DNA of 26,780 nucleotides from a virus: positions 1-26,780 of the IMG/VR virus record IMGVR_UViG_3300008110_000536, one strand, 5' to 3'. Positions within the stretch are counted from its first letter, which is position 1. Each line of letters starts with the position of its first letter. The position numbers and the translations under genes are program-made. The notes under the pieces were generated by a model, which saw nothing but the letters and a program-made list of their open reading frames with translations, was not told the origin of the DNA and did not search any database. Below, in pieces: positions 1,756 through 26,434 of this stretch.

Positions 1756-2190
1756 TTACTTTGTGATGCTACGAAGCATCCATCCGTGTTTTTTGTGAGC
1801 ATCAATACGACCTGCAATAAAGTCTGCAAGTCCTTGTTGGTCTAATTCGTCTGCAAGTTTAAATGCAATATCAAGAGTTGCAAGAACTTTTTCATTGTCC
1901 ATTGCTAAACGGCGAACCATTTCAATGCCACCTGGAATAGAAGTTTCATCTTCAATGGTAGTTAGTTCTAAAAACCTTGTGAAAGAACCTGGTGCATAGG
2001 CATTTAGTGAACGAATTTCTTCCGCAATTGGGTCAACTGCACCGTGCAATTCTTCATACAAGTTGCCAAAAAAATCGTGATATTGTGGAAAGTTTGCACC
2101 TTCCACATTCCAATGATAGTTGTGTGATTTAAGGTACATAGCAAAAGTATCTGCCAAAACCTTACGCATGATTTCGATTAAAGTGTCCAT
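1756..2190 (-). CDS. dps: Dps-like mini-ferritin (DNA-protection during starvation family)
   Basis: A 144-residue protein with the full Dps ferroxidase signature. H26 and H38 are 12 apart, D53 follows 15 later and E57 4 later, the same spacing as H51/H63/D78/E82 of E. coli Dps. The segment NYHWNVEGANF matches the conserved 'H.HWNV.G..F' helix. The family forms 12-subunit shells that oxidise Fe2+ with H2O2, suppressing hydroxyl-radical damage; some members also bind DNA. There is no lysine-rich N-terminal tail, so DNA binding of the E. coli type is doubtful; the C-terminus is mildly basic (HKKHGWMLRSITK). It lies between terS and terL and has its own promoter-like motif. This position is unusual for a T4-like phage. 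Family assignment is secure; the role in the phage is unknown. Confidence 0.93.
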   Translation of the reverse strand: MDTLIEIMRKVLADTFAMYLKSHNYHWNVEGANFPQYHDFFGNLYEELHGAVDPIAEEIRSLNAYAPGSFTRFLELTTIEDETSIPGGIEMVRRLAMDNEKVLATLDIAFKLADELDQQGLADFIAGRIDAHKKHGWMLRSITK

Positions 2191-2205: not shown

Positions 2206-2610
2206 AGTTTTCAAAAGTTTCATTAATTCGGCAGTAGACCCAACAAATACTGCTTTGTCCACATTGACATTCTTAACTGAAGATGCTTCTTGTGGTGAAA
2301 GGTCTTTTCTTCTTTTTTGTATTTCAAGTAAATCTTTATTCAAATCTGCAAGATTTTTAATTAAACCGGTAGCAACTTCGTATGCTCTAGGATGTTCAGA
2401 TGCCTTAGCAACATTCAATAAATCATCCATCGCCTGATTGCCCTTTTCAATAAGACTACGAATATTGCATCTCGCAAATGCGGCATCGTCATCAACAACA
2501 GTAGGAGACAATGGTTGAATTTCTTTTGATTCAGATTCTTTTTCAGTTACTTCAAACTGAATAGGTTCAACATCTAAAACTTCAGATAATTTTTCATTTA
2601 GTTTTTTCAT
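2197..2610 (-). CDS. terS: Terminase small subunit gp16
   Basis: A 137-residue protein that matches T4 gp16 (164 aa) in its central helix pair and C-terminus. 'YEVATGLIKNLADLNKDLL' followed by a basic helix and 'KDLSPQ' parallels T4 'MEVFATLMGQMTTTNREIL' and 'KDITSEQ'. 'VFVGSTAELMKLL' parallels T4 'VFMGSPTELMDEI'. Small terminase recognises viral DNA and regulates the gp17 motor as a ring oligomer. The N-terminal 45 residues are acidic and probably disordered. The start overlaps the stop of the gp15 gene by 4 nt (ATGA), indicating coupled translation. The usual terS-terL adjacency is broken here by the Dps gene. Confidence 0.88.
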   Translation of the reverse strand: MKKLNEKLSEVLDVEPIQFEVTEKESESKEIQPLSPTVVDDDAAFARCNIRSLIEKGNQAMDDLLNVAKASEHPRAYEVATGLIKNLADLNKDLLEIQKRRKDLSPQEASSVKNVNVDKAVFVGSTAELMKLLKTNK

Positions 2611-3650
2611 GGTATATTAGGAAACTCAGTTATTGTTTCTGCAAATCCAAATTCATCATCCGGGTCTGTATCTTGAGGAACTGCGGTTGTAACAATCTGC
2701 ACAAGTTTAATTGGCGATTTTTGTGTGGCAGTAATCGTATATTTAGCACGACTGTAATCACCACGAATGACATTGTTTGCTTCAAGCAATCTAGTTAAAT
2801 CACCAACAATTAATGTGCCTGTATTAGTGTTACTGAAGTAAACTACTTTGCCTGTAATTTCTCCGTGACTTTGGACTCTAATTGTTTCACCTGTGGTAAA
2901 ATAGTTATTACCATTGGCATAATCAACAGTAACTTGTTGAGTTATTCTATCGTTTGGTTCATTGTAGATATTTGTAAATGCACGACCATATGAAATGCCG
3001 CCATTTGCAGAAGTGTTTGCATAAGCGTCACCAATAAGTCCAATGTCGCCTTTGACAGGTGGCCATAAAAATGCTTTTACTGTGAACTCTAAATCCCAAA
3101 GAATCAATCTTGTTGTAGAAAAATCACCTTCATAATCTGTGGTTGTATTAACAGAATTTAATATAACAGGCATGTCATATTTCTTACCCATCTCATTAAC
3201 AAAATTAACTGAAACAGTAAAGTCTGGTGAGAAAAAAGGAAGAATCTGTTCTACAATTTGTGTACCATCTTCTGTGTTTCTTACATAGATTGACATTGAA
3301 AAATTAAAATCATAAGGAACAGGAACATATTGTGATTTGACACCTGTTGCAGTCTGATTAAAATTTTGTAGTGTTGATATTTGTTTTCTTCCAGAATCGT
3401 AAGAAATGCCTGTCATTTCAAAAGATATTCTAGGAACAACAGTATTGATAGACCTTGTAAATGTAGGGTCTTGTGTAATTTTTGTTATGTATTTTTCTTT
3501 TGAACCATAAGATAATGGCACTTTAAATTTTTCATATGAAGTCGCACCTGACTTATTGTACCTTTGTAGGTAAATATCATTGAATAGTGTACCAAACGCA
3601 ACAACAACTTTGCGTATAGTTCGATTATAAAAATGTGCATTACCTAGCAT
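2607..3650 (-). CDS. gp15: Tail completion / sheath terminator protein gp15
   Basis: This is the homologue of T4 gp15, which caps the finished tail and joins it to the neck. The 347-residue product is longer than T4 gp15 (272). Matching blocks are the N-terminal FYNRTIRKV...GTLFNDI (residues 7-26), VPLSYGSKEKY (44-54), VEQILPFFSPDF (133-144, T4 VEQILPYFQPHF), the W-P-P segment (196-198), and a C-terminal 'AVPQDTDPDD' resembling T4 'VVPRDIDPED'. Residues about 246-308 have no counterpart in T4 and look like an inserted beta-rich module (see findings). The ATG overlaps the gp14 stop codon by 1 nt (TAATG). Confidence 0.93.
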   Translation of the reverse strand: MLGNAHFYNRTIRKVVVAFGTLFNDIYLQRYNKSGATSYEKFKVPLSYGSKEKYITKITQDPTFTRSINTVVPRISFEMTGISYDSGRKQISTLQNFNQTATGVKSQYVPVPYDFNFSMSIYVRNTEDGTQIVEQILPFFSPDFTVSVNFVNEMGKKYDMPVILNSVNTTTDYEGDFSTTRLILWDLEFTVKAFLWPPVKGDIGLIGDAYANTSANGGISYGRAFTNIYNEPNDRITQQVTVDYANGNNYFTTGETIRVQSHGEITGKVVYFSNTNTGTLIVGDLTRLLEANNVIRGDYSRAKYTITATQKSPIKLVQIVTTAVPQDTDPDDEFGFAETITEFPNIP

Positions 3651-4576
3651 TATGCTTCACCAAATGGGTTAACTTCTGTAAAGTCGATGATTGAATCAGA
3701 TTCGGATTCAATTCGTGTATTGTCGATAATATTTTCAAATGCATTATTATCAAATGCATTGTCATTAATTGTTCCTGATGTTGTATAGTAGGCACCAGAT
3801 GTTGCACCAATTGTATTTGATGCATTGGCAAAAGTTCCCATTACACGATAAACATCCAATGTTCTTGCAGATGCAGCCTTTGTCCAAGTATGAACAGTAG
3901 CTTGTGCGGTTGCATTTGCAAAAGTATTGTCTGGTGATTGAAACACAATTTCATCAGGTTGATATGTTCCCAAACCAGTAGAAAGAGACATAGTTAATTG
4001 GCTTCTTGTATAGTAATCACGGATGTTGTCATCAATTTCGGCAATACCTGTATGAATTCTCTCATTTGAAAAAACAAGTTCTTTCATTTTTAATGCATAA
4101 ACATAAACATTGCCGCCTCGACCACGACCTAATGTATAAAACATTGCTTGGTCATTTTCATGTTCAACAAACATAATTTCCATGAAACTACGAGTGAGTG
4201 GAATAAAAACTAAATCACCTTCTCTAGGTCTTGGTAAATTAGATGAGCCGGTTGAGTATTTAAACCTACGGCGAGAAACTAACATAGTAACTTCATCTCG
4301 CACTTCAAGACCAAACTTAGATGCAAAGTCTCCTTCACCATCAAAACCTGTTACATTCTCCATATACATTTCGATTGGATATGCAGTTAGGTATTCTTTA
4401 GCAGTATCTTCACCATACAAATAATCAATTTCATTTCCACTTCTTACTGTTCTTGGAAGGTAAAAAACATCCATGCCATGAATCTGCATGGCTTCAATAA
4501 CCAAATCCTCAACGAGCAATTGCTCTGAGGTAATTTGTTCAGCAGGAAAATTATTGAAGTAAAAGTTGGTAGACAT
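3650..4576 (-). CDS. gp14: Neck protein gp14 with C-terminal beta module
   Basis: This is the homologue of T4 gp14 (256 aa), which with gp13 forms the head-completion/neck assembly. The core matches at 'DVLV/DLVIEAMQIHGMDVFYLPR' (residues 25-42), 'LYGEDTAKEY' (53-62), 'FGLEVRDEVTMLVS' (88-101) and 'PREGDLVFIPL' (117-127), each paralleling T4 gp14. The protein is 308 residues long. The extra length is mostly residues about 201-266, a beta-rich segment with the pattern 'DEIVFQ...ATVHTW...LDVYRVMGTF', similar to segments in gp15 and gp8 of this phage. It ends in an acidic tail rich in N, D and S. The start follows the gp13 stop within 6 nt. Confidence 0.92.
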   Translation of the reverse strand: MSTNFYFNNFPAEQITSEQLLVEDLVIEAMQIHGMDVFYLPRTVRSGNEIDYLYGEDTAKEYLTAYPIEMYMENVTGFDGEGDFASKFGLEVRDEVTMLVSRRRFKYSTGSSNLPRPREGDLVFIPLTRSFMEIMFVEHENDQAMFYTLGRGRGGNVYVYALKMKELVFSNERIHTGIAEIDDNIRDYYTRSQLTMSLSTGLGTYQPDEIVFQSPDNTFANATAQATVHTWTKAASARTLDVYRVMGTFANASNTIGATSGAYYTTSGTINDNAFDNNAFENIIDNTRIESESDSIIDFTEVNPFGEA

Positions 4577-4582
4577 TCATCA

Positions 4583-5536
4583 TTATCCAGTAAAGATTTC
4601 GCTTGGCAGACTGTTGAAATTAAACATATCTTCCTCAATCTCTTTTATTTCCGTTTCTGCTTCATCATAAATTTCTTTACCATTTAATGTAACGCCACCA
4701 GGCATTGCAATGCCACTAAACTTTTTAAGATTATTACCCCATTGTCTCTTAATTAAAGCAGTTGCATACTTCTTTAAGAAACGGTCATTCCAAACATCTG
4801 AAATTCCAGACAAAGTTGCAGTTACATTATCCACATTCGCACTCATTGGTCCAGCTAATGTAATTTGAGATGGTGAATTAATGTTGCGAATTTGTTTCGA
4901 TTCACTACCAATTGTAATGAAATCATTTTCTAAAACTTCTTGGTCAAAAATTGTACCATAACCAGTAAGTGTATTTGAAGATATGTTAGCCGTTACTGTT
5001 CCCGTTAAAGTAATTGTGTCTGGAACAAGTTTTCGGTAACATTCAATAATAACATATTCACCATCTTGCAAATCTCTGTCCCAATCAATATCAAGGAACA
5101 ATTTATTCATGTGACGATTGAATCTAAACTGTGGTGTTCCTGAAAACAATAATTGTAAAGAACGAATATGTTGCATTGTGATTTCATATGAAACATAAGA
5201 TACCGATGTAAAATCATAAAGGTCGTGTAACCTTAATTGATATCTTAGGTCGAACATATTGATTGACGAATTAGAATCGTCAAATGGCAATACGCCAGTA
5301 ACAAATGTAACGGCATCAGGCGCATAAATCCAACGGCGAGACCTATCTTCTGCCGTAATTTTATGTTTCATATAAATTTTTTCAGTACCATCGAAGTGAT
5401 AGTCATTGAAAAATTGCAATGCTTCATCGATTCTGTCCTCAATTTGGTCGTCATCCACATTAATTTGAATGACTGGAAAACCTAGTTTTCTTAGACAGTA
5501 ATCTTTAAATTGTGCTCTTGTTTTAGGGGCTGCCAT
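4583..5536 (-). CDS. gp13: Neck protein gp13 with internal insertion
   Basis: This is the homologue of T4 gp13 (309 aa), the head-completion protein under the portal. The N-terminal 'FKDYCLRKLGFPVIQINVDDDQ' region (10-31) and 'DEALQFFNDYHFDG' (37-50), plus the C-terminal 'KKYATALIKRQWGNNLKKF' (255-273) and 'PGGVTLNGKEIYDEA' (279-293), are typical of T4-like cyanophage gp13. Between 'CYRKL' (166-170) and 'VWNDRFLKKY' lies a stretch (about 175-245) with alternating T, S, I, V and G. It reads as an inserted beta domain and is not part of the core fold I remember. The start is ATG. The likely promoter GATAAATA lies just upstream, overlapping the preceding fibre stop. Confidence 0.92.
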   Translation of the reverse strand: MAAPKTRAQFKDYCLRKLGFPVIQINVDDDQIEDRIDEALQFFNDYHFDGTEKIYMKHKITAEDRSRRWIYAPDAVTFVTGVLPFDDSNSSINMFDLRYQLRLHDLYDFTSVSYVSYEITMQHIRSLQLLFSGTPQFRFNRHMNKLFLDIDWDRDLQDGEYVIIECYRKLVPDTITLTGTVTANISSNTLTGYGTIFDQEVLENDFITIGSESKQIRNINSPSQITLAGPMSANVDNVTATLSGISDVWNDRFLKKYATALIKRQWGNNLKKFSGIAMPGGVTLNGKEIYDEAETEIKEIEEDMFNFNSLPSEIFTG

Positions 5537-5542
5537 AATTGA

Positions 5543-5550
5543 TATTTATC
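5543..5550 (-). promoter_or_regulatory. Late-promoter-like motif GATAAATA before gp13
   Basis: The minus strand reads GATAAATA 6 nt before the gp13 ATG. The TAA inside the motif is the stop codon of the frameshifted fibre C-terminus (GGA TAA ATA). The same arrangement is seen at 17843-17850, where a fibre also ends in ...ALG followed by TAA ATA. It would start the neck/small-terminase unit. Promoter function is inferred. Confidence 0.5.
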
Positions 5551-18872: not shown

Positions 18873-21800
18873 TTAGCCTGTCGGTAATGCGATTGCACGG
18901 AAGTCACGAATCTTAGGTACATCAACTGGATTATTACCAACCATTACAATCTTAATTGCAAATGTTCTAAAGCTATTGTATGCAGTAGAATCGGTCGTGT
19001 AAGTAACAGAATTGTTTGCAATACCGTTAACACCTGGTGCATATGTTACTTCACGGAAATCAGTCTTATATGATGAAGTAAAGTTACCACTAATTCTTGT
19101 CATTAATTGATACTGTGAATTATCAAATGCATTAGGATCGGATTTAGATAACAATTTTGCATAAACATAAATTTCAGAACCTGCTGGTTTGTATGCAGTC
19201 AAGTAAACTCGTAAATCACCAGAATCAAAACCATCGGCAAGAGTAACTCTACGGGTCACATATCTAACTTGTGCATTACCGCCTGAGCGTTTATCTTCAC
19301 CATTGTAGATTGCAGTTGCACCTGAACCGGCACCTGTAATTGTAATTGTTGGTGAAGTTGTATAGGCAGAACCTGGGTTGTCAACAATGATACTTGTTAC
19401 ATTGCCACTTGCAACAACCGCATATGCATTGGCACCAGAACCACCGCCACCTGAGATAGAAACAGAACAGTTACCAGAATAAGCGGCACCACCATTTGTA
19501 ATTACGAATCCACTATTCATTAGTGGTAGATTATTAATCTTGTTATCGACAGAAATAATACCAAAACGAGTAATGTCGAGAACAGGTGAAACATCTGAAC
19601 TTGATGTTGACATTGTTGCAGTTACAATGAATGTATTGTTACCAACATTCTGATATAAAATTCTGCGACCTTCTCCATCGTCACAATCATAGTCTGACAA
19701 TGGAATGATTGATTTGGCATTAGCGTATGCACCACCAGATTTCTGTGAATCAAATGTATAATTGATTGTCGTATTGGCAACAGAAATTTGTGATGTGATT
19801 AGATGTACCAAATCAAATGGTGTATTTGAACTTGGTGCATTAATTCTAAACTTAGCGGTAACAGGATTTGTTGAGAATCTTCTACGGAACATTCTGAACA
19901 TTAAATCAGAGTTTTGGTCTGAAGTCCATGTCGAACCGTTTTGAGATAAGAACAAAGAACCACCATATGGTTGTTCAGAGATTTGTTTACCACCAACCAA
20001 GTCTAACTTACCAATCTCTGCAATGTATGCCTCATATTTGTTTGAGTTCGCCAATAGAACAAATGAATGTTCGCCTGGTTGCAAGTAAATTGGTGTGTCA
20101 AATACAAACTCTGTGTATTTGTTTGAATCTTCTAAACTTGGTGATTCTGTTACTTTAACTTTATCTGGTGTCAAAGAAACAGTTGCATATGGGTAAATTA
20201 CTGATGATGAAGGATATCCGTTAACAGTAGGACGAATTTGTAATGTAACAGGAATTATTTCGTCTTTTGTTTTGAAACAGAAACGCATCTTATCAACAAA
20301 AACACCTTGTGGGAAGTTTGCAGGTGACACCAAGAATGTCTGTGCAAGTGGGTCTGCCCAACCAATAATTTGTCGTGTTGAAGATGAAGATACTGAAGTA
20401 CCTAGTCTTTCTGTGATAACACGACCATCAGTTACAGATTGTCTCTGAATAGAAGGTTGAATTGTTGATACAAGAACTTCTTCTTTTTGTTGCAATAAAC
20501 CTTGTGCAAAGAATGATGCATCACCAGATGTTGATGAAGAAGGAATATCACCAGTTGAAGTATCTGTCAAACGGAAGTTTTTCTCACCAACACGGAATGT
20601 TGCAGTTGGGATTGTAAAGATACCTGCACACTTACCTGATACATCTGTCTTTAGACGACCAATTGAGTAAGTTGAAGATGTATCTGGTGTGATTGACCAA
20701 GAACCAGAAATCGAAAGAACACGGGTACCTGAGTTGTATCCTGAAACAGTTGCGGATTGTCCTGCACCTGTACCAGAAGTAATGAATACGGTTGCGCCTG
20801 TGTAATCACCAGTATTAGTTGCACCAGTTACGGCAGTGCTTAGTGTAATAGAACCTGATGATGATGCGGCAACAAAACCAGAATAGTGTTCGAAACTAGA
20901 AATCCTGTAAATGTTACCTGATGACTGGCCAACAATATCTGCGGTCACATTAAATGGTGACGATACGGAAATGTTTGTCAAGTAAACATTGTTGTTTGAT
21001 GACAATACGGCAATTGCAGTACCTAGTGTCGCAGAAGTTGAAGCATTACGAATAGTAACCGTTTCGAAGTTACCAACAGTTGTTCTTAACAGAATATTGT
21101 TAGTTGTAGTTGTAAATCTGTTGGCTCTTGCAACATATTTTTCTGCAGCTGCATTATCAAAGAATGGATACAATGTGGTACTTGGTTTAAAGTCTATTGC
21201 AGTAAACAGAACACCAATTGAACGCATGAATGGAATTACAGAAACATCAATGATTCTGTCACCAATAGATTGCGTAATTCTTTCTGAAACAACTCTTGAT
21301 GCAATACCATCTCTTGTTTGACCAACTTGACGAGTGGTCTCAAAAGAATTAGTAGAAGTTGTTGTGCGAACTAATGCATTGCCTTCCCAATTATCACGGG
21401 AAGATGTTGAAGTACCAGTTCTTCTTGTTGATGGTTCACCTGTCCAACGATTTTGCCATGCACCCCATTCAAATTGCCAACTAGATGCACCAGATGAAGT
21501 CAACAATCTGTTCCATGCATCTTGGTCACCACCTAAGTTAATTAAAACATCAGGTCTGGTGTCAGTATCAACCCAAATATCAGAAGGTGGGTTAAGTGTA
21601 ATTTTACCAAGATAGTTAACCACATTGAATGGGTTAACATTGATAGAACGAGATGCAAGAGGTTGGTCAATAAACGCAACAGAAGTACCTGTTGCCGTTA
21701 CAAAAGGACCTGTTTGCAAATGATTGGTTGAGTTTGCAGAATCGAATGTTAGACCAAATGAATAGATGTTAAACGATGGTCTTAGATTTTTACCTGTAAC

Positions 21801-24800
21801 ATCAATCGAAGCAATGTATTCATCACGGGTAACATCGGCAACTGAGTGACCTTTGAATCCGTCAGTAATAATACCATTCTTAAATCTTGGTAAGTTTGTG
21901 CTATCTAAGATGGTTAAATCTTGTTTGTTTAATGTATCTTGTTCGAGCAATGACAATGCAGTATAGTATTCTAAGTTGTCAATTCTCTTTTCAAGCACAC
22001 CAATATCACGCATTGTGAAGCGTTTATTGTTGATGTATTGAACACTTACATCACGAACATCTTTGACATAAGGTGGGTTAAACAGAAGATACAATGTCAT
22101 TGAGTTGTCTTTGTCTTTTGGTTCTTGTGGAGACAAAGATGAAACACCTTGAACGATTTCGAATGTTCTATTTTTATTAAGAACAATCTTATCAATTCTA
22201 GGCATAAAATAACTGTAATCGAGAATGATATCATCACCATTCTTTGGAATCTTAGGACCAGTTAAAGAAGCATCAACATCAAATTCTACCGTACCACCAA
22301 TTGTCGATGTAGCGTCTTTACGAACAGGTCTAAAGTCGAGGTGGTCTCTTAACTCATACTCTGTGCCAGAAACTGGTGATGTATAAGTTGGAATGGTGTC
22401 ATAGTCTGTATATGAATCAACACTAAAGTAACCCGCACCAGAAGATGTATAACGGTTGTAACGAACAACCAAAGGTCCATTTGCAGGTAAGAAACCTGGC
22501 TTCAGTTTAATAGAAGCGTGGTCATAAAATGAATCTTTTTGACCATTATCCAATGTGTATCTTTCTGTCACATCGGTGTAACCAGTATTTGCAACTGTGC
22601 CGCCATTAAAGTCAAATACAGAAATCAAATCTGTAACATCTGAAACATATAATGATTGTGCAACATCTGGTGTTTTAACAACAAAACTACTTGCGATTGT
22701 TGTTTGACCTTGTGTGCCATAAACTAATACTGCTGAGTTACCAAAAATATTTTGAGCGCCAGCAGTTTGAACTTCAACATTCGCCGTTACTTTGTTTTTA
22801 TTTTTTGGTGAAGGTGAAGAAACATCGATTGTTGCCACAATATTGGCAGTCATATTGTTGGCGTTTTCAACAGTAATTGTTGGACCTGCGGGAGTAACTG
22901 TGAATTTATCCGCAGGAATTATTTGTCCTACATTATATGGTGATGTGCCTGCACTTGTAACAGTAATTTTATATTCTTCTAATTTTGCATTTGTTGTGGA
23001 CGCAGATGATAATGCTTCACCAGTGCCTAATGTCAATGGTGGTGTATCATTGCCAACAAATGTAATTGCAGTATATGGTCTTTCGTAAGAGTAACCAGTT
23101 AGTGCCAAATCAATTGCATTTGCAGTTTGATTGTTTGCAACATAATCCTGACCCAAATCGAAAATTAAAGGTTCTTGGCGAGTATCAGAAATGAATACAT
23201 CCTGATATGTTGATGCCAAGTCTTTTGAACGAGTATCAATATTCGCAGCAGCAATACAGTTTGTGCCTGAAGAAACATGGAACGATTCCGCATCATTAAA
23301 TTCAAAGTCAATTGAGAATCTGGATGCAGTTGTGGGTGTGGTCAAGAAAGCAGAACTCAAAGTCATTGTTTGAGTTGATGCGGTAAATGCAGTAATTGTT
23401 TTTGATGCTTCGCCTGTACCTGGACCTGTTGTAATACGAATCTTTGCGCCTTTATACGCATCGTTTACGCCAGAGAAAATTTGACCTGCGCCAGTATTAC
23501 CAATTACTAATGAAGTACCAGTTGCAGAGGCGACATTACCCGTAATTGAACCAACACTTACATCAAACAAATAAGTTCTGTAAATGTAAGTTTTGGAATT
23601 TGATGTATCGGTTGCAGATTCGTAACCAAGTGTTTTAACTCTTGCAGTACCAATTCTTGTATTTGTTCTGGTAGCAGAAGAAGTTAAGTTGATACTTGCG
23701 TTTGGTACGCAATGAATATCAATCGTTTGTAATGTGTCAACAGGAAAAGAACCAAAATGGTCTTTAGTGTAAACAAAGTAACCAAAGTCTGAACTAATCG
23801 ATTTGCTCGATACATTTGCAACTTCTCTTGGTTTTTGAATTGTAATTGTTGTTGGTGCAATTGTTTCAAACTCATAACCATAAACATATGCTTTACCTGG
23901 TGACAATGTAATGTCAGTCTGTGCGTTATTTGCAGAGTTGGTTTCTAATGTGAGTTTAAAAGGATTTACAGTATAGTTACCAGATTCATCGTATGTTCTA
24001 CGAGCAAGTTGGTCTTCCAATACTGAGTAAATAGGGTATTTGTAATCTTGCGTTAGTTGTGCTTCTTCAACACGAGCTAATTCAATGAATCGTTCTAAGT
24101 CGGTTGAATCGATTGCACGGCTTGAAAGGACTAGGTCAACTTTAAAGCGGTCTGCACCTGGTGCTTGATAGTTAGAAGCATCTTGTGCTGGGTCGAGTAA
24201 TGATGTATCGGTAGATGCAGAAACAATTGATTCAGTAATTTCAAAACCAACTTTGACATTGGCAGAAGTGTTTGAATATTTTGAAAGTGCAATTGTCTGT
24301 GCAGTATTCTTAATAAAGAAACCATCATAGAAAAATACACCCTCATTGACAGAGTAAACTTGACCTACACCTACACCAGAAGTGTTGGCAAATACAGGAG
24401 AAAATTCATTTGTTTTGATTGTCTCACCAGAAGTAAACGCATCACCATAGACTTGTTTTACCATCAAGGTGATTGGGTCTCCAGTACCCAAATCAGATTC
24501 GTAAACTCTTAAAACTTCTGCTCTTTTTGAATCATCTGTTGAAAGAATTGTTTGACCAATAAAGTTATTTGCAACAATATCGGTAGATGAGTAAGATGAA
24601 CTTAGGTTAATATAAGTTGCATCTTGGATGAATGTCTGGCAACCAAGAACACGGGATCCATTTTTGAAAACATGCTGACCAAAGCGGTCAACTTGTTTTT
24701 GTAGAATCGTTTGAAGTTGAGTTAATTCACGAGCCTGAACCGCATAGCCAGGCTTGAAAAGCATACGAAGAAATTTCTTATCTTCGTCAAAATCATCATA

Positions 24801-24836
24801 ATATGGGTTTACATTAAAATTCGTTTCAAGAGCCAT
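18873..24836 (-). CDS. Giant DUF4815-type baseplate/fibre-attachment structural protein
   Basis: A 1987-residue virion protein. The N-terminal 'YYDDFDEDKKFLRMLFKPGY' then 'AVQARELTQLQTILQKQVDRF' is the hallmark of the DUF4815 family, present in T4-like cyanophages as a large structural protein after gp8. A central conserved block includes 'GDRIIDVSVIPFMRSIGVLF'. A second, near residue 1490, includes 'WADPLAQTFLV...GVFVDKM...PVTLQIRPTVNGYPS'. The C-terminus ends 'VDVPKIRDFRAIALPTG'. Extra beta modules appear at about 88-150, 430-515, 1290-1370 and 1775-1850, the last with 'YTTSPTITITGAGSGATA'. Position suggests it takes the place of T4 gp9/gp10 as the fibre-bearing part of the baseplate wedge; this is inference. 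The ribosome binding site is GAGG. Confidence 0.88.
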   Translation of the reverse strand: MALETNFNVNPYYDDFDEDKKFLRMLFKPGYAVQARELTQLQTILQKQVDRFGQHVFKNGSRVLGCQTFIQDATYINLSSSYSSTDIVANNFIGQTILSTDDSKRAEVLRVYESDLGTGDPITLMVKQVYGDAFTSGETIKTNEFSPVFANTSGVGVGQVYSVNEGVFFYDGFFIKNTAQTIALSKYSNTSANVKVGFEITESIVSASTDTSLLDPAQDASNYQAPGADRFKVDLVLSSRAIDSTDLERFIELARVEEAQLTQDYKYPIYSVLEDQLARRTYDESGNYTVNPFKLTLETNSANNAQTDITLSPGKAYVYGYEFETIAPTTITIQKPREVANVSSKSISSDFGYFVYTKDHFGSFPVDTLQTIDIHCVPNASINLTSSATRTNTRIGTARVKTLGYESATDTSNSKTYIYRTYLFDVSVGSITGNVASATGTSLVIGNTGAGQIFSGVNDAYKGAKIRITTGPGTGEASKTITAFTASTQTMTLSSAFLTTPTTASRFSIDFEFNDAESFHVSSGTNCIAAANIDTRSKDLASTYQDVFISDTRQEPLIFDLGQDYVANNQTANAIDLALTGYSYERPYTAITFVGNDTPPLTLGTGEALSSASTTNAKLEEYKITVTSAGTSPYNVGQIIPADKFTVTPAGPTITVENANNMTANIVATIDVSSPSPKNKNKVTANVEVQTAGAQNIFGNSAVLVYGTQGQTTIASSFVVKTPDVAQSLYVSDVTDLISVFDFNGGTVANTGYTDVTERYTLDNGQKDSFYDHASIKLKPGFLPANGPLVVRYNRYTSSGAGYFSVDSYTDYDTIPTYTSPVSGTEYELRDHLDFRPVRKDATSTIGGTVEFDVDASLTGPKIPKNGDDIILDYSYFMPRIDKIVLNKNRTFEIVQGVSSLSPQEPKDKDNSMTLYLLFNPPYVKDVRDVSVQYINNKRFTMRDIGVLEKRIDNLEYYTALSLLEQDTLNKQDLTILDSTNLPRFKNGIITDGFKGHSVADVTRDEYIASIDVTGKNLRPSFNIYSFGLTFDSANSTNHLQTGPFVTATGTSVAFIDQPLASRSINVNPFNVVNYLGKITLNPPSDIWVDTDTRPDVLINLGGDQDAWNRLLTSSGASSWQFEWGAWQNRWTGEPSTRRTGTSTSSRDNWEGNALVRTTTSTNSFETTRQVGQTRDGIASRVVSERITQSIGDRIIDVSVIPFMRSIGVLFTAIDFKPSTTLYPFFDNAAAEKYVARANRFTTTTNNILLRTTVGNFETVTIRNASTSATLGTAIAVLSSNNNVYLTNISVSSPFNVTADIVGQSSGNIYRISSFEHYSGFVAASSSGSITLSTAVTGATNTGDYTGATVFITSGTGAGQSATVSGYNSGTRVLSISGSWSITPDTSSTYSIGRLKTDVSGKCAGIFTIPTATFRVGEKNFRLTDTSTGDIPSSSTSGDASFFAQGLLQQKEEVLVSTIQPSIQRQSVTDGRVITERLGTSVSSSSTRQIIGWADPLAQTFLVSPANFPQGVFVDKMRFCFKTKDEIIPVTLQIRPTVNGYPSSSVIYPYATVSLTPDKVKVTESPSLEDSNKYTEFVFDTPIYLQPGEHSFVLLANSNKYEAYIAEIGKLDLVGGKQISEQPYGGSLFLSQNGSTWTSDQNSDLMFRMFRRRFSTNPVTAKFRINAPSSNTPFDLVHLITSQISVANTTINYTFDSQKSGGAYANAKSIIPLSDYDCDDGEGRRILYQNVGNNTFIVTATMSTSSSDVSPVLDITRFGIISVDNKINNLPLMNSGFVITNGGAAYSGNCSVSISGGGGSGANAYAVVASGNVTSIIVDNPGSAYTTSPTITITGAGSGATAIYNGEDKRSGGNAQVRYVTRRVTLADGFDSGDLRVYLTAYKPAGSEIYVYAKLLSKSDPNAFDNSQYQLMTRISGNFTSSYKTDFREVTYAPGVNGIANNSVTYTTDSTAYNSFRTFAIKIVMVGNNPVDVPKIRDFRAIALPTG

Positions 24837-24844
24837 GAATTCCT

Positions 24845-26434
24845 CTAAAATCTAACGACAAACTTCAAATTCTCAGCTTGTCCGTCTGTTCTTTCTGTTT
24901 TAACTATATTCTCTACATGCATAACATCACCGGTGTAAGGTTGAAACTCAGGGTTTGCTTGAGCAATAACTCGTCTACCGGATGGGTTCGTATTTGCACC
25001 AATAAGCGGGGCACCAACTTGCGCCGTGCCTCTCACTCTGGTCAATCGTACCTCATTTGTTGTATAATCATTTACATAACCACTAAAACTTGCCGCATTT
25101 GCAGAAGGTCCTTGGTACACAAACTCATTCAAGTTATATGATGTACCAGAAACAAGTGTCAAATCAGTTGTTTGAGAAATGACAGAATTTGCAGTTGCAG
25201 TATTTGCTTGAACGCTTGATCCATATTTATACGGGTCTCTTAGCAGACCATACTGACGGAATGTAGTATTTGCAGAGATTAATCCGCCTTCCGTTGTATC
25301 GATTTCACCAATACGCATTACAACCATTACATTTGATGCACCTAGTTGTTTTGCGGAGTTGAACCCGTGGCCAAATTTAGGAGGCAAAACTGCTCTTGCA
25401 GTTGCACCTGTGCCTGTTCCAAAAATGCGAACATTGGCAAATGTGTATTCTCTGCCTCTTGTTGTGACTGTCATTTTTTCAACAGTATTTCCACTTAATC
25501 TTGGTTGCGCCAAAACAGTTGTACCATCACCATCGATATACACTCTGGTTGATAAGAACAATGCATTGGCAACATTTGAACCACCGCCATTTGCAGTCAC
25601 GCCAGATGAAAGTGTAATTTTAAGATTTACAGGGTCAACAGAACGAATAAATGCGGCACCACCAAGACCTGTTCCAGAGATAGTCATATTGGCAGTATTT
25701 TGAATTGCCGCAGATAGATTTGGTGAAACTGTATCGTCTGTTCCAACAACAGTTAAAATTGTGCAACCTGTTTGAAATGCCGATACAGTAATATTACTGT
25801 GAATATATCCTGTGCCTCTGTTTGTCATCACAATTTTGGCCAATTCACCATCAACGGCGACATTTGCAGAAGTTGAATAGTCTAGTTTAGCAGTCGATGT
25901 TGGCGCAGGTATCCAATTCGTAGTTAAGAATCGATTTGAGGCTCTTACATTATACAGATATTTCCAAAGATAACCATCGGCAGTTTCAACAACACCATTG
26001 GCAGTTAAGTTTTGGCCAGATGGTTCTACGGTGGAATTTGAAGTTACATTGTTGCAAAGACACAGATATACATTTCTCTCTGTGTTGATTACATACATTG
26101 GTTTTAAATTTTGAGTTGTATTTGAGGACAATAAAGTTGATAACTCAATTGTATCATCAAATTGACGATATTTGGTATTTCCTGTCCAGTCAACTCTAGG
26201 AATAACAAGTTCTACATCATTACCGGTAACTCTTTTTGCGGCATAAATGTTATCCCAAACTTCTTTTTCGTCAGCAACAGTATCAGAAATAGAATCTGGA
26301 CTATCTTCGTTAGCCCATGCAATATGATTACCAATGAAAACATATCCAATGGTAGTTGGTTCTGGTTCGTAGAACGATTCTTTAAATTGTTCTGCGTTAT
26401 GAAACGCAAGTTTTTCAGATGTGTATGATGGCAT
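24845..26434 (-). CDS. gp8: Baseplate wedge protein gp8 homologue
   Basis: A 529-residue homologue of T4 gp8 (334 aa), a wedge component next to gp6 and gp7. Matches are 'VELVIPRVDWTGNTKYRQFD' (residues 74-93; T4 'DAVIPRRDWGDTRY'), 'TADGYLWKYLYNV' (151-163; T4 'GDGYVWEYLFEI') and the C-terminal 'GDVMHVENI...QAENLKFVVRF' (502-529; T4 'GEMIYMENR...TEEINILFTF'). The extra 190 or so residues are mainly beta modules: 'IVMTNRGTGYIHSNI' (about 201-300), 'VTTRGREYTFANVRIFGTGT' (about 320-350) and residues 428-485. It is preceded by AATAAATA; there is no clear Shine-Dalgarno. Confidence 0.88.
   Translation of the reverse strand: MPSYTSEKLAFHNAEQFKESFYEPEPTTIGYVFIGNHIAWANEDSPDSISDTVADEKEVWDNIYAAKRVTGNDVELVIPRVDWTGNTKYRQFDDTIELSTLLSSNTTQNLKPMYVINTERNVYLCLCNNVTSNSTVEPSGQNLTANGVVETADGYLWKYLYNVRASNRFLTTNWIPAPTSTAKLDYSTSANVAVDGELAKIVMTNRGTGYIHSNITVSAFQTGCTILTVVGTDDTVSPNLSAAIQNTANMTISGTGLGGAAFIRSVDPVNLKITLSSGVTANGGGSNVANALFLSTRVYIDGDGTTVLAQPRLSGNTVEKMTVTTRGREYTFANVRIFGTGTGATARAVLPPKFGHGFNSAKQLGASNVMVVMRIGEIDTTEGGLISANTTFRQYGLLRDPYKYGSSVQANTATANSVISQTTDLTLVSGTSYNLNEFVYQGPSANAASFSGYVNDYTTNEVRLTRVRGTAQVGAPLIGANTNPSGRRVIAQANPEFQPYTGDVMHVENIVKTERTDGQAENLKFVVRF

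Follow-up and report, generated by a model that had tools for sequence, protein, structure and literature searches.

The window analysed here, a 26,780-nucleotide stretch of viral DNA, carries a gene for a Dps mini-ferritin between its small and large terminase genes. This placement is no singular event; dps is close to being a core gene in a large, mostly lake-water, uncultivated group of T4-like phages. The best reading, which we hold to be probable on balance, is of a late-expressed, iron-oxidising cage that prefers H2O2 and protects phage DNA around packaging.

The original prediction placed a Dps gene between the terminase subunits, and the ORF fills exactly the interval that it named, flanked by terS and terL (Table 1). 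Gene order in the window is gp13–14–15–16–dps–17, the T4 order with dps added. This order of gp13 to gp17 and a T4-type TerL, which is 55% identical to that of the nearest isolate, mark the phage as T4-like (Kyanoviridae-like). The dps stop and terL start codons are contiguous (TAAATG), as had been described. One premise has to be given up: gp16 and gp17, said to be normally adjacent, need not be so: three small ORFs separate the two genes in S-PM2, and one does so in Pelagibacter phage Mosig. Across the wider group the content of the terS–terL site varies, and what sets the present group apart is that dps occupies the site in nearly every case. Elsewhere in the window, residues encoded by 18873–24836 form a 1,987-aa protein (PHROG 358, DUF4815), very large and baseplate- or fibre-associated, whose gene adjoins a baseplate wedge gp8-like gene (24845–26434).

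Table 1 Features of the terminase junction and its neighbours in the window
Feature	Position	Strand	Description and evidence
terL (gp17)	130–1755	minus	Terminase_6N 1.1e-26, Terminase_6C, PHROG terminase large subunit
dps	1756–2190	minus	144-codon ORF, 144-aa Dps mini-ferritin (P0001); ligands H26/H38/D53/E57, radical-trap pair W27/Y45
ATAAATA late-promoter motif	2198–2204	minus	matches T4/S-PM2 NATAAATA; 7 nt before dps ATG
terS (gp16)	2197–2610	minus	Pfam DNA_Packaging PF11053 5.1e-10, PHROG 445 8.9e-37
gp15 tail sheath stabiliser	2607–3650	minus	PF16724 1.1e-67
gp14 neck / head closure	3650–4576	minus	PF11649 2.3e-27, PHROG 460
gp13 head–tail adaptor	4583–5536	minus	PHROG 211 8.7e-42; ATAAATA motif at 5543–5549

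Profile searches place the protein in the Ferritin/Dps family, with a full-domain match to Pfam Ferritin (PF00210; 3.4e-20, 72.9 bits against a cut-off of 24.5) and a match to PHROG 3636 at 1.3e-29; among solved structures, phmmer finds Pseudomonas aeruginosa Dps (8ff9, 3.6e-32). An AlphaFold2 model, predicted as a monomer only from an alignment of 34 relatives, has a pLDDT of 97.4, and its best PDB match by Foldseek is again 8ff9 (TM 0.96). Predicted helices (2–28, 34–61, 70–76, 88–115 and 119–143) follow the Dps pattern, giving a four-helix bundle with a short helix in the B–C loop and without a fifth helix. The assignment to Dps is therefore upheld by both profile and fold. The Pseudomonas protein (PA0962) is 40% identical, shares the four di-iron ligands and likewise has no basic tail, but it is encoded by a stand-alone bacterial stress gene, and most of its ten-tyrosine radical network is gone from the phage proteins, where Phe, Leu or Met take these positions.

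A constant offset relates the two chains (window residue n is 8ff9 residue n+11), so that H26, H38, D53 and E57 coincide with the crystallographic ligands H37, H49, D64 and E68; the full ferroxidase spacing read from the letters is thus correct. All 106 distinct phage Dps proteins keep these four residues, and W27, K134 and W137 as well, so that none of these relatives has lost a ligand. Y45 is kept in 105 of the 106. The phage proteins thus retain a Trp/Tyr pair that in Listeria Dps, as W32/Y50, serves as a radical trap (PMC10002758). Comparison of dps with ten relatives gives a dN/dS of 0.06–0.20, within the range of terL and terS; dps is under strong purifying selection. The subunit carries a net charge of −9 (pI 5.0; median of relatives −8). 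Helix A begins at residue 2 and the proteins stop where the helices stop, so the window protein has no basic N- or C-terminal tail of the kind with which E. coli-type Dps binds DNA, in line with the expected lack of a lysine-rich tail.

Scanning IMG/VR with the window protein returned 361 relatives, the best three of which (L001–L003) are 100% identical and come from three different metagenomes. A second scan used terS alone and was hence blind to the presence of dps. In this sample dps sits at 69 of 78 informative junctions, nine being empty, and at 38 of 44 after dereplication at 90% terS identity, an occupancy of about 88%, with ~12% of close relatives having no dps at the junction. Where the junction is empty, the two terminase genes overlap or almost abut. 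Four scans analysed together give terS–dps–terL in 206 IMG/VR loci, a larger insert between terS and dps in 6, only one visible flank in 21 further loci and dps elsewhere in the genome in 19; two subsequent scans brought additional junction and non-junction loci. An assembly chimera is ruled out, the junction recurring in hundreds of contigs from many metagenomes.

Annotated isolates give another picture: no dps is apparent at the terminase junction in 50,697 phage records, among which the only T4-like match is the reservoir Synechococcus phage S-SRM01 (Kyanoviridae). Its Dps is 33% identical, and the gene lies among hypothetical genes about 57 kb from terL. The photosystem gene psbA, sought as a hint to the host, is absent in 24 larger relatives of the window phage.

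The late promoter of the cyanophage S-PM2 is NATAAATA, near T4 TATAAATA (PMC2984593). This T4-type element, NATAAATA, is present upstream of dps in the window, where a promoter-like motif had been claimed at 2197–2205 and where ATAAATA is found on the minus strand (Table 1). Nine copies of ATAAATA occur in the window against 9.7 expected, a number that by itself is not above chance. Their arrangement is more telling, as all nine are on the coding (minus) strand (spanning 2198–26447) and eight lie at gene boundaries, 6–25 nt before a start. Among relatives the motif precedes dps in 56/91 cases and gp13 in 21/51, and it is found before none of the gp14 (0/67), gp15 (0/83) or terS (0/91) genes, nor before terL, whether after dps (0/74) or at empty sites (0/8). 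Coding-strand sites in relatives number 160 versus 12 on the opposite strand. These gene-by-gene counts and the strand bias argue that dps often begins its own late unit, dps–terL, and the counts speak against the motif being terS coding sequence only. The proposed co-transcription with terL and late expression are likewise supported, as far as sequence evidence goes.

The motif overlaps the last terS codons in the window. Of the 61 loci that have it, 56 encode it as terS codons AAT AAA TAR, and constraint on the protein could therefore play a part in its retention. It is missing in 32/93 loci (about 38% of relatives in another count). Across junction loci it stands 5–9 nt from the dps ATG, which would leave the transcript almost without a leader, and no ribosome-binding site precedes the window dps; some non-junction dps genes have the motif about 25 nt upstream together with a good ribosome-binding site. 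Taken as a late-promoter map of the phage, the nine window sites include four that are only 6–7 nt from an ATG, which suggests near-leaderless late mRNAs.

From these data we propose the following course of events. The dps gene would be transcribed late with terL, and its own promoter in the 3′ end of terS would drive this in the window phage and in about 60% of relatives. By homology, the product would assemble into a 12-subunit cage with di-iron sites between subunits, and these would oxidise Fe2+ with a preference for H2O2, as does Pseudomonas Dps, which uses H2O2 rather than O2 and protects cells against H2O2 (PMC10002758). Fenton chemistry would in this way be held down at the stage when the replicated phage genome is being cut and packaged and the defences of the host are failing. 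Because the protein is acidic and lacks a basic tail, protection would come from removal of iron and peroxide, not from DNA coating. The fixed position and the frequent late promoter suggest that the cage is probably made during DNA packaging. Lytic infection by YerA41 strongly induces host dps and catalase (PMC7354516), so oxidative stress can occur in lytic infection. Against the proposed course of events stand the ~12% of empty sites, the motif-less loci, the overlap of the motif with terS codons, the scant leader and the replacement of most of the Pseudomonas tyrosine network. Two sampled phages with dps also carry rubrerythrin, a second ferritin-superfamily antioxidant gene (L172:1258–1695 in G009; L171:1471–1905 in G002); nearby in G002 is a 64-aa CxC..CxxC protein (L171:2901–3095) that matches no ferredoxin family.

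A different site of action is the main rival, and we think it possible though unlikely: Dps would be in or on the prohead or capsid at packaging, protecting the packaged genome and perhaps entering the next host. A broader form of the same reading, a shade more doubtful still, makes phage Dps a recurrent head-maturation part, a ferroxidase cage in the prohead that keeps iron and peroxide off packaged DNA and that would exist as a protease fusion in some phages and as a separate late protein in the T4-like group. Four independent hints bear on a place in the virion, one of them from virion proteomics. Mass spectrometry of purified particles detected a Dps homologue in Proteus phage Privateer (PMC7881722) and another in coliphage SU10, the latter by six peptides (36% coverage; PMC4281155). 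Neither phage is T4-like, however, and the SU10 Dps may be a contaminant, as the preparations also held thioredoxin and DNA polymerase. A 95-kb phage contig encodes a 963-aa protein (L412:2675–5566) that contains a Dps domain with intact ligands, its N-terminal half matching head maturation protease families (PHROG 18402, 3e-57; Pfam Peptidase_S78, 7e-4), although the Peptidase_S78 match falls slightly short of the Pfam cut-off and a PHROG named portal protein is matched by this half too. The gene lies directly upstream of a 667-aa ORF, which may encode the major capsid protein. In BFVD, too, some proteins that bear the name ‘Prohead protease’ contain a Dps fold. Fusions of this type are found in non-T4 phages; another head-maturation-protease-type protein (L413:3–1955) has a Dps domain with intact H/H/D/E ligands.

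The capsid targeting sequence, with its role in T4 (PMC9026906), offers a further line of evidence. Around non-junction dps genes, 17 of 173 ORFs have N termini resembling it versus 0 of 806 at junction loci, a pattern that was chosen after examples had been seen. Window Dps has neither an extension nor a start of this kind, the proteins beginning at about the start of helix A. Since the hints come from outside the window's group, the N-terminal pattern is post hoc and the protein has no targeting sequence, we keep the head location as the main rival and the late-expressed antioxidant cage as the preferred reading. The neighbours with such N termini occur in L065, L069, L073, L335, L350, L353, L357, L360, L368, L369, L370 and L372, with starts such as MFTFKQYILEAE, MLSFRQYINED and MILYQDYLLES; one family among them is DUF6267 / PHROG 455.

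Two other functions fare worse. The cage type of the ferritin fold and the intact ferroxidase site would suit a Dps whose main task is not DNA protection but the storage or management of iron for late phage synthesis, but the ligands and radical trap are those of the peroxide-using Dps type, and a search for an iron-release partner (Fer2_BFD, 16 records) found none; we regard this as improbable. Still less probable is an action on DNA within the packaging machine, where Dps would assist a nuclease or compact the DNA. Position between terS and terL would fit such a role, as would the ability of Pseudomonas Dps, the closest solved relative, to cleave DNA in vitro with Mg2+ (PMC10002758). The mechanism of that cleavage is itself unknown, however, TerL has its own nuclease domain, phages with empty sites package without dps, and the protein is acidic and tailless.

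Phage Dps as such is already known. The PHROG 3636 Dps of C3 podoviruses (Kuravirus, Privateer, SU10) is also phage-encoded, and was detected in virions of two phages, but identity is 27–39% over part of the protein and the phages are not T4-like; dps lies among nucleotide-metabolism genes in Kuravirus Bas86 and is listed as a middle gene in SU10. Dps proteins of gut phages (Gratiaviridae and others) and a Lactobacillus phage have been proposed to relieve oxidative stress, in other phages and hosts, and are not reported as near-core or in a terminase cluster (PMC8008677, PMC6669764). In the literature searched we found no report of the near-core junction position, the promoter or the protease fusion. 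Phage Dps genes have so far been treated as occasional accessories; here one is near-core, lies in the packaging cluster and often has its own late promoter, which suggests that phages are under real selection from oxidative damage to their DNA. Such damage may arise at the packaging stage or within virions exposed to sunlit water. With a Dps domain present in a head-maturation-protease-type protein, whether ferritin cages play a role in phage heads becomes a concrete question.

A careful tree of 57 proteins separates the phage Dps, as a single group, from all 20 bacterial Dps retrieved (support 100/99), and a recent host origin is not supported. A larger, quick tree puts only one bacterial sequence, long-branched and from a MAG (L212), on the phage side, and the contig of the sole ‘Bacteroidetes’ MAG match inside the phage group carries phage structural genes. 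Dps is probably long established in the present phage group. Junction Dps fall into two lineages, and Dps encoded at other genome positions branch between these; a single origin at the junction is not rejected (AU p 0.25).

The junction has seen exchange of cassettes. Some dps genes are 74–80% identical beside terL of 44–51% (in one pair, terL 47% and dps 78%), and in the converse case dps of 47% identity lies between terS of 77% and terL of 82%. HNH and NUMOD3/GIY-type homing endonucleases are inserted exactly between terS and dps or dps and terL in three loci (L110:3895–4425, L084:4364–4936 and L016:3984–4562), at the same borders, making the junction a plausible insertion hot spot. That dps is itself a passenger there, moved by these endonucleases and of little benefit, would accord with both observations but is very improbable given strong purifying selection, an invariant active site, about 88% occupancy and a dedicated promoter motif. 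In other loci terL is split by inserts (L032, L052 and L053). In L038–L044, repeat-rich and glycine-rich fibre-like genes are inserted on either side of terS, next to gp15 and next to dps, indicating that the packaging cluster tolerates fibre genes.
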